Shown here one piece after another: positions 50,558-63,145 of a stretch of DNA of 64,000 bases. The DNA lies in the NCBI GenBank assembly GCA_023268155.1, contig JALNKM010000001.1, positions 248,001 to 312,000 of the forward strand, in the 5' to 3' direction. The position numbers were made by a program, and so were the translations under genes. Under the pieces are notes generated by a model that was not told where the DNA came from, made no database searches, and was given only the letters and a program-made list of their open reading frames with translations. The DNA is from Candidatus Geocrenenecus huangii (GTDB taxonomy: Archaea > Thermoproteota > Nitrososphaeria_A > Caldarchaeales > Wolframiiraptoraceae). How positions within the stretch are numbered: position 1 is the first letter of the stretch; every line of letters starts with the position of its first letter.

Positions 50558-52021
50558 GTGAAGCTCAAGATCAAGTATAGGCCCAGCTATAGATTCCAGA
50601 AACTTTTCCGAGTAGATAAAGAGTTTAGAGTTATTGCTCCTGTAACTAGAAGGACGGTGGAAGTTGCTAGAGCATTCGGTTTAGGGATAGATGAGGAGAA
50701 AGCATTCACGTTGTTCAGAGAATTTGAGGTAGACATCAACCCCGGCGACATCGTATATGTTACGGGGGAGAGCGGGGGAGGGAAAACAACTCTCCTATTA
50801 ATGCTTGCTGAGGAAATGAGTAAACATAAAGAATTTATGCCGATCGTAACCGAGAGAAACATCGCCATAAGAAGAAACGAGTTGGTGATACATGGTGTTG
50901 GTGAATCATTTCAGCAGGCTCTAGAGATACTTAACTATACTGGTCTCAGCGACGCCTACATTTACTTGAGAAGATATGAAGAGCTAAGTGATGGGCAAAA
51001 ATATAGGTATAAGCTTGCTAAAGCCTTAGATAAGAATGCCAAGACCTTAGTGTTTGATGAATTCTGCGCAACCCTTGATAGAGAGACGGCGAAGGTTGTA
51101 GCTTACCTAATCCAGAAGATATGCCGTAAGATGGGGATAACTCTAGTTGTGGCCACTACCCATGAAGATTTGATCTATGATGCGAACCCAAACATCTTGA
51201 TAAGAAAAGGTTTAGGCCCAGAAGTCGAGATAGAATACTTCAAGCCTGAACCTAGAGAATGTAGTTTAATGAAAAACATTGTTATTGAGCAAGGTGATAT
51301 GAGAGATCTCAAAAGCTTAGAATTTTGGCATTATAAAGGTGGGTTTAGAGGATGGGGGTCGAAGATCTACCGTGCAAAGCTAGGAGGGAAAGTAGTCGGC
51401 GTAATTCTATACACATACCCGCATGCATACTTGAAGGCGAGATATGAGGCCTTTACACATCTAAGAGAATTAAGTAGAAAATCTAGAAAAAGTTATCTAG
51501 ACTATGTTAATAGATGTTTTAGGAGGCTTGCGAGAATAATAGTTCACCCTAAGTATAGAGGTATAGGGCTTTCGGTCAAGCTAATTAGAGAGACTATGCC
51601 TTTGCTAGGTGTCCCGTATATTGAGTGCCTTGCAGCAATGGCCAGGTACCACCCATTCCTCGAGAAAGCCGGGATGATGAGAATAGATACTAGGCCTTCG
51701 GAAATGATCGAGTACATCTATAGGAGACTGGAGGAGATGGGATTCAGACTGGATATGATACAATCGAAAAAACACAACTTGGAGGTATTGAAGACATTAG
51801 ATAAGCCTGTCTTGAAGAGGTTGAAGAAGATCATGTTGAAGACGTATAATCCGAAGTTTAAGAGAGATGCCAAGCTACTAAAGAAAGTAGTTTACGGAGA
51901 TATTGAGGCAATGGCTGAAGCCTTGAAGAAAACTCCTATCCCTACAGTATACTATGTCTGGAAGAACCCAGTATACAAAGAGTACCCCGACCCACAGAAT
52001 CTGAATTCTCAGAAAAATTAG
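50558..52021 (+). CDS. ABC-type ATPase fused to a GNAT acetyltransferase domain (COG2401-like)
   Basis: A 487-residue two-domain protein. The N-terminal ABC ATPase has Walker A GESGGGKTT (residues 70-78), signature LSDGQ (142-146), Walker B TLVFDEF (162-168) and switch His TTHED. The second half (about 240-400) has the GNAT fold, with the acetyl-CoA loop HPKYRGIGLSVKLIRE. Helices follow to the end. No membrane helix is present, so it is not a transporter. The COG2401-type combination is known in archaea and viruses without a clear role. It sits between capsid and connector genes and may have its own promoter. Confidence 0.85.
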   Translation: MKLKIKYRPSYRFQKLFRVDKEFRVIAPVTRRTVEVARAFGLGIDEEKAFTLFREFEVDINPGDIVYVTGESGGGKTTLLLMLAEEMSKHKEFMPIVTERNIAIRRNELVIHGVGESFQQALEILNYTGLSDAYIYLRRYEELSDGQKYRYKLAKALDKNAKTLVFDEFCATLDRETAKVVAYLIQKICRKMGITLVVATTHEDLIYDANPNILIRKGLGPEVEIEYFKPEPRECSLMKNIVIEQGDMRDLKSLEFWHYKGGFRGWGSKIYRAKLGGKVVGVILYTYPHAYLKARYEAFTHLRELSRKSRKSYLDYVNRCFRRLARIIVHPKYRGIGLSVKLIRETMPLLGVPYIECLAAMARYHPFLEKAGMMRIDTRPSEMIEYIYRRLEEMGFRLDMIQSKKHNLEVLKTLDKPVLKRLKKIMLKTYNPKFKRDAKLLKKVVYGDIEAMAEALKKTPIPTVYYVWKNPVYKEYPDPQNLNSQKN

Positions 52022-53270: not shown

Positions 53271-54482
53271 ATGTGCATCTACAGAATTAAGTTTTCCTCA
53301 AGATACGTATGTGGGAAAAGGCTTCCTCTACAATGCTGTGAAAACGTCTGTCCCTTCGGCCCAAGCAAGTGGAGGATGCTGGTATCTAAAGATAGAGGGG
53401 ATACTTCAAGACATTACTGGGTCTGCAGGCTGTCTGGAGAAATCGAGAAAGTAGAAGATGCAGAATCAGCTATAGAGAGAGTTAGGAGGGGGGAGGGAGC
53501 CCATGTTTGCAGAGGCTTAAGATACAGGTTTTTAAGCAGTTACAAAAATCAGAAAGACGGCGGATTCGAAGAAGCCCTGAGATTAACACGATTCATAGAT
53601 ATACATTTAGAAGAAGAGAGAGGAAAAGGATGCGAGGTAGCAATAATAGATTCTGGAGCGTCAGAAGATACTCCGAGCAAAGCTAAGATATCAATATACG
53701 AGGCATCGATAATAGATGGTGAAGGCCATGGAAGATACATACACTCGATAATCCATAAGCTTATCCCCGAAGCAAACATCCACGTTATACAGGTTTTCGA
53801 AGAAGAAGGGGCTATCCCAGACTACGTAGTAATAACGGCTTTGAAAAACTGTATAGAATTGAGAGTTCACGCTGTCAATCTAAGTATCCAGAGCGAGACA
53901 TGGAGTGATGGATGTGATCCCCTAAGCTTATACGTAAACTATCTTTCACAAGAGAAGAAGATAGCAGTGGTGGTGGCGGCGGGAAATGGTGGACCTAGAA
54001 TGATGTCTGTAGGTTCACCCGGAGCGGCCAGACATGCTATAACTGTAGGCGCAACCGATACTAAAGGCAAGTTGTGGAAATACTCAAGCCGTGGCCCCAC
54101 ACTCGATGGAAGATTTAAGCCAGACTTAGTTGCTCCAGGTTTATTCATCTTGAACGATGTATCTTTGAAGGGCACAAGTTTTGCAGCTCCATGGGTTACA
54201 GCTACCGCATCTATAATAAACAGAGACTTGAACTCTGCAATAGCTACTAGACGTATTCTACATCTTTCTTCTAGACCTCTCCCGTTAGACTATCAAGCAG
54301 ATAGAATACTCCTCTTCAAAGAGAAGAAACCCAAGAATGTTAGGAAGCTATCTATGGTATTCTCTGAACAACTTCCCCTGATTCTAGATCCTAGAAACTT
54401 ATTTGGAGCAGGTCTGCTAGACGTTAAGTCAGCTATCGATATGAAGAATGAACTCTTCTCAGAGATTAAAAGTATTTCATAG
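53271..54482 (+). CDS. Subtilisin-like serine protease (S8) in the virion module
   Basis: A 403-residue protein. The S8 triad is complete: Asp127 in CEVAIIDSGA, His153 in GHGRYIHSI, Ser303 in GTSFAAP, and Asn239 in VAAGNGGP forms the oxyanion hole. The N-terminal 90 residues hold Cys at 2, 14, 22, 23, 27, 52 and 80 and may be a zinc-bound or disulfide domain. No signal peptide is seen, unlike secreted archaeal subtilases. It starts directly after the tail completion stop and precedes tail tube, so it is expressed with structural genes. It could process tail proteins or break the host S-layer in the virion; neither is shown. Confidence 0.9.
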   Translation: MCIYRIKFSSRYVCGKRLPLQCCENVCPFGPSKWRMLVSKDRGDTSRHYWVCRLSGEIEKVEDAESAIERVRRGEGAHVCRGLRYRFLSSYKNQKDGGFEEALRLTRFIDIHLEEERGKGCEVAIIDSGASEDTPSKAKISIYEASIIDGEGHGRYIHSIIHKLIPEANIHVIQVFEEEGAIPDYVVITALKNCIELRVHAVNLSIQSETWSDGCDPLSLYVNYLSQEKKIAVVVAAGNGGPRMMSVGSPGAARHAITVGATDTKGKLWKYSSRGPTLDGRFKPDLVAPGLFILNDVSLKGTSFAAPWVTATASIINRDLNSAIATRRILHLSSRPLPLDYQADRILLFKEKKPKNVRKLSMVFSEQLPLILDPRNLFGAGLLDVKSAIDMKNELFSEIKSIS

Positions 54483-54494
54483 AATGTTTAAACC

Positions 54495-55391
54495 ATGCTG
54501 TCGGGATACATGATCAGGAAGCTGTATTACGGTGAGGAAGAAGAGTATGGTGAGCCAGCATCTATGCTAGATGTTCTAGGGATAGCTAGGAGATGGAATT
54601 CTGGAGGAGAGCTAGTATATCAGGATGTCAGGGTGGGCGAAAGAGAAAACTATGATAGAATACCCATAGGGTTGAACTTCTCTCCAACTATAGAGTTCCT
54701 ACCCATCTCTGGAAAATTCTTAAAATACGTTTTTGGAAAAGTAGTTAGTAGTGGTTCAAGCTCCCCATACACTCATCTTATTGAGTTTGGGAACAGCTTA
54801 AAGTCTATCACGGTGGAGGCTGCCAGGATCGGTGAGACGTCGATCGCTGAAAGAGCTACTGGGGTTTTAGTCGACTCAGCCGACATCTCTATAGAATCTG
54901 ATGGACTCGTTACAGTCTCTCTAGAGTGTAGAGCTAAGTCAGTATCTATAGTCTCCCCATACACCGACCCAGCCATAAGCTTACCGAACAAGAAGCCTTA
55001 TAGATTCAACGATATGAAATTGTATATTGAGGGGGTAGAATATGCATCTATAGTTAGTGCGAGCCTATCCATAAGCAACAATCTAGAAGAGATGCCTAGG
55101 GTCGGGGACCACGTATCAGGTTTCAAGTTGACGAAAGCTGAATGCGAAGGAGAATTAGACCTAATCTTCGAAGATGCTATATTGCTGGATAAGTTTCTAT
55201 CAAGAAGCATCGTTGATATCGAGTTGAGGTTGACCCGCTCCAGTGATGACTACATACACTTCAATCTCCAGGATTGCTTAATAGAGGCCGAGGCAGAAGT
55301 ACCCTTCGAGGCGGAGGTACTTATGCAGACTATTAGACTCTACCCTAAGAAGATAAACGTCGAGGTAAAAGACGACATCGAAGAATATTAG
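54495..55391 (+). CDS. Tail tube (major tail) protein
   Basis: A 298-residue protein of mostly beta pattern, starting MLSGYMIRKLYYGEEEEYGEP and continuing with RIPIGLNFSPTIEFLPISGKFLKYVFGK and EMPRVGDHVSGFKLTKAECEGELDLIFEDA (given in part). This pattern is found in archaeal/phage tail-tube proteins of Siphoviridae. Size is larger than the usual 150-200 and it may hold an extra domain. It lies between the protease and gp10-like genes, the usual place near tail assembly chaperones. Confidence 0.65.
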   Translation: MLSGYMIRKLYYGEEEEYGEPASMLDVLGIARRWNSGGELVYQDVRVGERENYDRIPIGLNFSPTIEFLPISGKFLKYVFGKVVSSGSSSPYTHLIEFGNSLKSITVEAARIGETSIAERATGVLVDSADISIESDGLVTVSLECRAKSVSIVSPYTDPAISLPNKKPYRFNDMKLYIEGVEYASIVSASLSISNNLEEMPRVGDHVSGFKLTKAECEGELDLIFEDAILLDKFLSRSIVDIELRLTRSSDDYIHFNLQDCLIEAEAEVPFEAEVLMQTIRLYPKKINVEVKDDIEEY

Positions 55392-55397
55392 GGATAG

Positions 55398-55763
55398 ATG
55401 ATGTTTGAGGTAATCTTGAAAGAAGAGGAGAACCTGAAAGATTCCTTGATGAAGATCTATGAGAAGATACGCAGGAAAACATCAGACACGCTCCTAGAAG
55501 CATCTATAGAAGCATACAATACTGCCAGGGAGACGGTGCATGTAAGGACTGGTAGACTTCGCAGCTCCATAAATCTAGAGAGACGTGGAGACTTCGAGTT
55601 TAGAATAGTTGCTGGATACCCATCTAGGGAGAAGGGTAAACCATATTATGCTCCTTTCGTCGAGTTCGGAACTAGGAGGATGCCTCCTAGACCATTCATG
55701 AAGCCTGCTGCAGAGAAAGCTATAGCTAGGGTAAAGTCCTCTTTCAATCTCTTAAGATCATGA
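55398..55763 (+). CDS. HK97 gp10-like tail component
   Basis: A 121-residue protein: an N-terminal helix (LMKIYEKIRRKTSDTLLEASIEAYNTA in part) then VHVRTGRLRSSI, YYAPFVEFGTRRMPPRPFMKPAAEKA, the signature of the HK97 gp10 family (GTRRMPPRPFM is its key part). It takes part in head-tail joining or tail tip assembly. It starts 6 bases after the tail tube stop, with an ATGATG start. Confidence 0.88.
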   Translation: MMFEVILKEEENLKDSLMKIYEKIRRKTSDTLLEASIEAYNTARETVHVRTGRLRSSINLERRGDFEFRIVAGYPSREKGKPYYAPFVEFGTRRMPPRPFMKPAAEKAIARVKSSFNLLRS

Positions 55764-55783: not shown

Positions 55784-56215
55784 ATGAGCGTTGAGAAGCT
55801 TAGAGAATTCGCAGGTGAGGCTAGCCGGGAGAAGCTTTTCCAGAAAATCAAAGAAGTGGAGGTTGGGGGAAGAAGGTATACTATCCGTCGACCAACCCGT
55901 GGAGAGATGTACTGTACGGGTATAAGCCAGCTCTCTACTTTACTTTCTATTCTCGAACGCCAGATAATGAGTGAGGAAGACTTCGAGAAAAAGAAGAAGC
56001 TTATAGAAGAGAAAGAGAAGGTCCAGTACGAATTTGAGAAGAGGCTTCTCCATCTCTGCGTTAAAGGATTAAGTGAAGATGAAATGAATAAGCTAGAGTA
56101 CAGCGAATGGTATACCTTGTTCTCGGAGGTCAACGACTTCGTATTCATGGCCCCTTTTCAAGAATTATTAAGGCAGCGGAGATTGCGGGAAAACTTGATG
56201 CAGGATACTTCATAG
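55784..56215 (+). CDS. Tail assembly chaperone, zero-frame product (gpG-like)
   Basis: A 143-residue, mainly helical, charged protein, located between the gp10-like gene and the tape measure gene as in lambda-type tails. Such proteins bind the tape measure and help the tube assemble. Near its end is the codon pair CCT-TTT preceded by C, which forms the slippery heptamer at 56152-56158. Reading normally, it ends at TAG 56213-56215. On a -1 shift, a longer fusion of about 197 residues would be made with the downstream frame. No sequence family is evident beyond position and frameshift. Confidence 0.8.
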   Translation: MSVEKLREFAGEASREKLFQKIKEVEVGGRRYTIRRPTRGEMYCTGISQLSTLLSILERQIMSEEDFEKKKKLIEEKEKVQYEFEKRLLHLCVKGLSEDEMNKLEYSEWYTLFSEVNDFVFMAPFQELLRQRRLRENLMQDTS

Positions 56216-56376
56216 AACACATTATCGCTGAACACTATCACTGGACGCATCAAGATATAATGAATCTTACAGATGGAGAGATAACATACTATCTCGCTAC
56301 GTTGATTATACATGACCTCGAGTATGCTAAGAAAGCCTCTTCTAAGAAATTTAAAAAAGGTCGGGGGACTACATAG
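56107..56376 (+). CDS. Tail assembly chaperone, -1 frame extension (gpT-like)
   Basis: This frame overlaps the first chaperone gene by about 109 bases and lies at -1 to it. Its coding part is probably only that after the shift, from 56158 (SRIIKAAEIAGKLDAGYFIEH) to the stop at 56374-56376, 72 residues. The aromatic and His-rich centre (HYHWTHQD, LATLIIHDLE) resembles the C-terminal part of fused tail chaperones that recruits tail-tube protein. There is no good ribosome-binding site of its own. The tape measure gene starts two bases after its stop. Confidence 0.75.
   Translation: MVYLVLGGQRLRIHGPFSRIIKAAEIAGKLDAGYFIEHIIAEHYHWTHQDIMNLTDGEITYYLATLIIHDLEYAKKASSKKFKKGRGTT
56152..56158 (+). promoter_or_regulatory. 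-1 ribosomal frameshift site C CCU UUU
   Basis: The heptamer fits X XXY YYZ exactly in the zero frame, with codons CCT (Pro) and TTT (Phe) able to re-pair one base back as CCC and TTT. The -1 frame then stays open for 73 codons including the stop. Position is in the overlap of two chaperone frames before the tape measure gene, where tailed phages use this mechanism. A following structure was not established. Confidence 0.82.
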
Positions 56377-62276: not shown

Positions 62277-62801
62277 TCATAGATCTGGTATTCTCTTCCC
62301 ACTTTCTCCTTCAACCTTCTTTCTCAGTTGGATGTACCATCCAGGGAAACCCAAATCCATTACCGCTCTATCAAGCGTATATGGCTTGATATCTATTATT
62401 GGTGTACCATCGAACAAGTCTAGTTTCTTCACGTATAGTATGTTTTCCTCTCTCTTCACGAGTTGAACTATTGTCAGAGCTACCGGGTTTGGACGATGAG
62501 GTGAGTCTGTACAAAAGACTCCAACCTCTGGAAGGTCTTTCTCATTGAAACCGAGTCTCACTAATCTCTTATGCTTTACTTTAAGAACACTTCTTTGTTC
62601 ACCGGTTACCTTGTGTAAATAAGCTATGACTATGAGATGAGTAAAGCCATCTATGCCCTCAAGTCCCTCCGCATATTCTTCAAATATCTCTAGTCTCCCA
62701 TCAACACCTTCAAAAGAATCTTTGACTAATTCATCCTCGAGGTCAACTCTAACGACGCCTATCGGATTAAACGTAAACTTCACCATCCTGGGATCCGCCA
62801 T
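62277..62801 (-). CDS. TrmO/TsaA-like tRNA methyltransferase
   Basis: A 174-residue protein with the TrmO beta-barrel motifs: FTHLIVIAYLHKVTG, VGVFCTDSPHRPNPVALTIVQLV, LYVKKLDLFDGTPIIDIKPY. It is the family that methylates t6A37 in tRNA-Thr in bacteria, with archaeal members. The gene is on the minus strand, the only one so oriented in the viral region, and is flanked by viral genes on both sides. It appears intact. It is either a host gene marking the junction of two elements or a cargo gene of the virus. Confidence 0.88.
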   Translation of the reverse strand: MADPRMVKFTFNPIGVVRVDLEDELVKDSFEGVDGRLEIFEEYAEGLEGIDGFTHLIVIAYLHKVTGEQRSVLKVKHKRLVRLGFNEKDLPEVGVFCTDSPHRPNPVALTIVQLVKREENILYVKKLDLFDGTPIIDIKPYTLDRAVMDLGFPGWYIQLRKKVEGESGKRIPDL

Positions 62802-62902: not shown

Positions 62903-63145
62903 ATGAGTTCTGTGAGCTGGCTACTCCATAGTCGTAAAGAAGAGTACCCACCTAAGACTAGTGAAGTATTGTATGGGGTAAGCCTTGCCGTTAAGAAGGT
63001 CGGAGAAGACATAGTTATTGAAGGTAAAGCGAGGACGCTAAACGATATCATACGTCTTAAACGTTTAGCCGAGGAAATCCTAAGCGAGATGATTAGAGGA
63101 TATGGAGATAAGCGAGTTAGCTCAGCTTCTTCTAGATATCGCTGA
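62903..63145 (+). CDS. Small protein ahead of terminase (possible small terminase)
   Basis: An 80-residue protein starting MSSVSWLLHSRKEEYPPKT, with a basic C-terminus (KRVSSASSRYR). It overlaps the terminase large subunit by 44 bases in another frame, and lies where terminase small subunits usually are. It is short for that role and no HTH is obvious, so this is only a positional guess. Confidence 0.5.
   Translation: MSSVSWLLHSRKEEYPPKTSEVLYGVSLAVKKVGEDIVIEGKARTLNDIIRLKRLAEEILSEMIRGYGDKRVSSASSRYR

Follow-up and report, generated by a model that had tools for sequence, protein, structure and literature searches.

A predicted programmed -1 ribosomal frameshift in the tail assembly chaperone genes of Caldarchaeales head-tailed proviruses

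Head-tailed proviruses of the Caldarchaeales (formerly Aigarchaeota) very probably use a programmed -1 ribosomal frameshift, as judged from comparative sequence analysis, to produce a tail assembly chaperone pair of the lambda G/GT type. The arrangement is exemplified by a provirus of the genus Geocrenenecus, part of which occupies the window (the whole 64,000-nt stretch of Candidatus Geocrenenecus huangii DNA that was analysed), and recurs in related elements, where both the slip site and the frame under coding constraint can be followed.

Provirus locus and predicted chaperone proteins

Head-tailed proviruses are already known in Caldarchaeales (PMC10547907). Close homologues of the tape measure protein of the window are found only in Caldarchaeales and viral contigs, together with a single distant match from a different class of the phylum; the same-genus relative is Ca. 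Geocrenenecus arthurdayi (contig L027/L043). The ORF1/ORF2 pair is located between the tail tube and tape measure genes (Table 1), the position expected of a G/GT pair. Genes for a head-tail adaptor, the major capsid protein and a candidate protease lie farther 5' of the chaperone pair, and a likely portal gene, judged from its translation, is 3' of the terminase gene in the contig. The preliminary description reported two overlapping frames directly before the tape measure gene, the second at -1, with a C_CCT_TTT heptamer in zero-frame phase inside the overlap and 72 residues in the shifted reading. These details are all exact: the zero-frame codons at the site are GCC CCT TTT CAA, and the product of a -1 slip would comprise 125 + 72 = 197 residues.

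Other genes of the locus include one with an ABC-type ATPase domain (Table 1), to which a similar gene is noted 5' of the tape measure gene of a distant relative (G079, L042). This relative was found by its tape measure gene and has no recognisable chaperone pair 5' of that gene. The virus genes of the window may be split around the minus-strand TrmO/TsaA-type gene.

Table 1. Features of the provirus locus, in window coordinates
Feature	Position	Strand	Evidence or remark
Gene with ABC-type ATPase domain, within structural module	50558..52021		Pfam E=5e-13; second half of product resembles acetyltransferase
Subtilisin-like protease gene (Peptidase_S8), between candidate tail terminator and tail tube genes	53271..54482		E=7e-28
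Tail tube protein (Phage_tube_2)	54495..55391	+	profile matches
HK97 gp10-like tail completion / neck protein	55398..55763	+	profile matches
ORF1, predicted G-like tail assembly chaperone, zero frame, 143 aa	55784..56215	+	ORF reading; phrog_344 matches of homologues; predicted fold
ORF2, predicted T-like extension, -1 frame	open from 56092, stop 56376; in-frame ATG 56107; 72 codons past slip site	+	T domain conserved among relatives; L061 match to phrog_9001
Shine-Dalgarno-like GGAGGT, 21 nt 5' of heptamer	56125..56130	+	role doubtful; place differs in most relatives
22-nt block GCCCCTTTTCAAGAATTATTAA, identical in window and L027	56150..56171	+	pair comparison
Slippery heptamer C_CCT_TTT, zero-frame phase	56152..56158	+	sequence; varies among more distant relatives
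Tape measure protein gene, 781 aa	56379..58724	+	PhageMin_Tail E=6.8e-28; phrog_991 tape measure E=8.9e-26
Gene resembling TrmO/TsaA-type protein, between tail module and terminase gene	62277..62801	-	resemblance of product
Terminase large subunit gene	start at 63102		

The ORF1 product (G) resembles phage tail assembly chaperones by profile and by predicted fold. In profile searches, 6/12 G homologues match the phrog_344 tail assembly chaperone family (best E=3.5e-4); the G of the window itself has no named profile match and matches one unnamed family only. Modelled with AlphaFold2, G has a mean pLDDT of 82; the confident part spans roughly residues 20-120, and confidence drops at around residue 121, close to slip codon 125. 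The predicted fold has a best match of E=1.5e-4 in a library of viral structures (BFVD), where many of the function-named matches are tail assembly chaperones (e.g., of the Mycobacterium phages Madruga and Predator), these chaperone-named matches being weaker (E=0.006 upward, TM-scores of about 0.4-0.5). No meaningful match for G is detected in the PDB by sequence or by fold, and G has no recognisable sequence homology to lambda G. Of the T domains, that of L061, one relative, matches the phrog_9001 tail assembly chaperone family (E=0.0072), and that of one member weakly matches Phage_P2_GpE (E=0.16). Profiles of the T domains compared between groups of elements give no significant match, and the T domains of groups A/B are accordingly not presented as homologous to those of groups C/D.

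Overlap and coding constraint in related elements

All usable relatives were surveyed over the stretch 5' of the tape measure gene or that surrounding the T ORF, and the resulting set at -1 comprises 22 elements, the window included. The tape measure protein succeeded as a query for this purpose, and G gave no match when searched against viral contigs and a phage collection. In groups A and C, GT directly precedes the tape measure gene; in group B, the gp10-like gene, and in some elements also a nuclease, is found between the two. A thermonuclease-like secreted ORF (DTFDAFPSGRVRLADINTPER) lies between the gp10-like and tape measure genes of the Caldarchaeum-type elements L028, L030, L033 and L035. 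The tape measure gene itself is split across frames in G011 (L039, G011:C22), while in G008 (L038, G008:C14) its open frame is longer and the middle part matches poorly; these proviruses may be decaying or diverged.

Conservation among homologues was one of the checks proposed by the preliminary description, and both elements of the prediction recur: the T-like ORF overlaps the G-like ORF at -1 in 22/22 elements, and the transition carries a strict X_XXY_YYZ heptamer in 15/22 (the window and 14 relatives), the sole one in each overlap, and a near-canonical heptamer in the remaining 7/22. Strict in-phase heptamers occupy 27 of 14,706 codon positions (0.18%) in the long genes of the window. The chance of one in this particular overlap is about 7%, and thus the window taken alone is no more than suggestive. 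Background rates from the window and the loci of its relatives predict 1.0 strict heptamer in the 22 overlaps where 15 are observed (P ~5e-16), and 0.5 where 9 are observed among ten dissimilar representatives chosen by eye (P ~8e-12); both P values assume independent overlaps, though related elements are not entirely independent, and the ten-representative figure is the fairer one.

The frame under selection changes at the site. When the window is compared with L027, the 20 codons 5' of the site differ at ORF1 codon positions 1, 2 and 3 in 0/20, 1/20 and 11/20 cases, while from the site to the ORF1 stop the corresponding values are 1/21, 7/21 and 1/22. The changes past the site thus fall at third positions of the -1 frame, which indicates that selection keeps the -1 frame and not the zero-frame tail of G. 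The 22-nt block at the site is unchanged, although the 20 codons before it carry the 11 third-position changes. The same switch in periodicity from frame 0 to -1 is observed in 13/13 of the -1 pairs when 150 nt upstream and 130 nt downstream are compared, the short ORF1 tail alone having too few changes to be informative in several of them. A sequencing error or pseudogene indel, to which the metagenomic origin of the assemblies might point, is hardly conceivable given this constraint on both sides of the site and the same frame relation in 22 elements from independent assemblies.

Without frameshifting, ORF2 could also be a separate gene, translated either from a start codon of its own or after ribosomes re-initiate at the ORF1 stop. 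Such a gene would be consistent with the in-frame ATG of ORF2 in the window, which is 5' of the slip site, and with start codons found at the ORF1 stop in five elements, as an ATGA overlap (L032, L034 and L037) or as GTG or ATG (L004 and L040). By contrast, the T frame includes no ATG, GTG or TTG before the ORF1 stop in 12/22 elements, where frameshifting (or an equally unusual route) is thus the sole way to reach T from a common start codon. The ATG of the window is disfavoured as a true start because positions 56092-56151 evolve as frame 0 (11/12 changes between the window and L027 are at ORF1 third positions), the stretch that follows it being unconstrained in the ORF2 frame. As a separate gene would also leave the heptamers unexplained, this arrangement is considered very improbable; in the five elements with a start codon at the ORF1 stop, re-initiation could supply extra free T in addition to the frameshift product.

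Predicted slip sites and direction of the shift

Six strict heptamer sequences are noted among the 15 elements: C_CCT_TTT (window, L027 and L037), C_CCT_TTA (L032 and L034), T_TTT_TTA (L061, L085 and L086), G_GGT_TTT (L030, L004, L036 and L039), A_AAT_TTC (L040) and A_AAT_TTT (L062 and L090). The two near-canonical sequences are G_GAT_TTT (L028, L029, L031, L033, L035 and L088) and G_GGG_TTT (L038, also as viral contig L057). The heptamer of the window is invariant in Ca. G. arthurdayi and exchanged for other heptamers in more distant relatives. The site has also shifted position: among the elements whose chaperones are closest to those of the window, the T_TTT_TTA of L085 and L086 is a few codons 5' of the position of C_CCT_TTT. 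At all 22 of the -1 sites, the second codon is UUN.

The G/GT arrangement put forward in the preliminary description is supported by these overlaps and heptamers and by the chaperone-like profile and fold of G, all derived from sequence. In the proposed mechanism, the majority of ribosomes would end at 56215 to yield G (143 aa). In a minority, Pro-tRNA on CCU and Phe-tRNA on UUU would slip back one base on C_CCU_UUU to CCC UUU, and translation would continue to yield GT (197 aa). If the proteins act as in lambda, G would coat the tape measure protein, the T domain would recruit the tail tube protein, and the G:GT ratio would tune tail assembly. In G/GT pairs as a class, G greatly outnumbers GT, the two proteins bind the tape measure protein, T also binds the tube protein, and the virion contains neither.

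Elements that might stimulate slippage are not apparent. RNA structure 3' of the site is no better than that of shuffled sequences in the window (z=0.28) or L027 (z=0.46), with z near 0 in most elements. A well-placed Shine-Dalgarno element is likewise not detected: the GGAGGT of the window is at a spacing beyond the usual distance of bacterial Shine-Dalgarno stimulators, and it does not occupy a fixed place in the relatives. Stimulators are common at frameshift sites but do not define them; thus, their absence lowers the expected efficiency of the putative slippage and not its class membership.

A sister group of viral contigs (L058 845-1367, L059 5076-5598 and L060 5149-5593) has the T-like ORF at +1. 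In these contigs, G ends in AAT TTT CGA CCG TAA or ACC TTT CGG CCA TGA (L058/L059 and L060), and downstream changes are mostly at ORF1 position 1 (27/44, 18/43 and 8/43 for positions 1, 2 and 3), a third position when read at +1. In the tape measure tree, L058-L060 group together with moderate support (87/52), and the tree does not resolve where they branch among the -1 lineages. In the same tree, L089 and L090 are close sisters (100/100), yet their chaperone pairs are of different families, such that G/GT is apparently swapped between elements as a unit.

Slippage of RNA polymerase on a homopolymer run, which would generate mRNAs of mixed length, could be suggested by the T-rich sites and by the run of seven T in L086. 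Polymerase slip sites, however, are usually longer than most of these runs, which have only 3-5 identical bases (C4T4 for the window); heptamer phase is kept among the elements and run length is not; and the TTT_CGN of the +1 clade has no long run. A transcriptional origin of the shift is therefore very improbable.

A variant of ribosomal slippage that is not exclusive of the proposed mechanism is the slip of a single tRNA, in which a P-site Phe-tRNA slides on U_UUN before a slow codon and the P-site half of the heptamer is less important. The UUN second codon common to all 22 sites would fit this variant, as would the six G_GAT_TTT sites, where re-pairing from GAU to GGA is poor. CGC or CGT follows 4/6 of the latter sites as well as the G_GGT_TTT of L030, and the +1 clade likewise pivots on UUU before CGN. 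While such slippage would not need the X_XXY half, the full heptamer is present in 15/22 elements, and T_TTT_TTA and A_AAT_TTC are not followed by CGN. Single-tRNA slippage is thus regarded as rather unlikely, and tandem slippage of the two tRNAs is favoured.

It is tentatively proposed that Phe-tRNA on UUU/UUN is the pivot of frameshifting in the tailed viruses of Caldarchaeales, and that, in a single virus family, the direction may have switched between -1, at U_UUU, and +1, at UUU_CGN, with the chaperone fusion kept. In other systems, position-37 modification of Phe-tRNA influences how U-rich sites slip (PMC5009743). Of the wyosine genes, a Taw1-type match is present in the host and TYW3/Taw3 is not detected there. 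The position-37 pathway of the host Phe-tRNA thus looks incomplete, and any link to the frameshift is speculation.

Relation to known frameshift systems

The lambda slip site is G_GGA_AAG, which differs from the -1 sites described here in that all of the latter have a UUN second codon and an archaeal host. Conserved frameshifting in tail assembly genes was reportedly described by Xu, Hendrix and Duda in 2004. In archaea, -1 frameshifting is poorly documented, as the preliminary description states, with one experimentally studied case and a few predicted viral ones (PMC8211752). The studied case, fucA1 of Saccharolobus solfataricus (reviewed in PMC8211752), is likewise a -1 frameshift of a thermophilic archaeon but concerns a host enzyme gene and a different site. 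The further suggestion that the G/GT arrangement is seldom shown in archaea holds in that cases are few, but -1 shifts of this type have already been proposed for the archaeal head-tailed viruses HVTV-1 and HCTV-1, -2 and -5 (PMC5009743, PMC8211752) and Hardycor1 (PMC7911831), in each before the tape measure gene. Thus, the Caldarchaeales represent a new group and not the first. The haloarchaeal viruses have purine-type sites, in contrast to the X_XXU_UUN of the Caldarchaeales elements, for which comparative evidence spans 22 elements. In a further haloarchaeal comparison, the annotated chaperone genes of HHTV-2 do not overlap. In the haloviruses of the HF1 group, the first chaperone ORF has a TTT-CGN motif at its end (PMC7230728), as does the G of L058-L060; the HF1 group and HSTV-2 use a +1 shift (PMC7230728, PMC5009743), whereas the window and its closer relatives are at -1.

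A limited search of the open-access literature found no paper on a -1 G/GT shift in Caldarchaeales or other thermophilic Thermoproteota. The presence of the shift in Caldarchaeales, the exclusive use of UUN second codons, the turnover of sites and the sister clade that uses +1 at UUU_CGN all appear to be new. The comparison strongly supports -1 frameshifting in thermophilic members of the Thermoproteota, and its 22 elements supply a set of naturally occurring sites suited to reporter work. Gene calling frame by frame misses or mis-starts the T half of these archaeal tail chaperones. If the proposed change of direction around a Phe-tRNA pivot is true, these viruses would constitute a natural series on what sets the direction of frameshifting in archaea.
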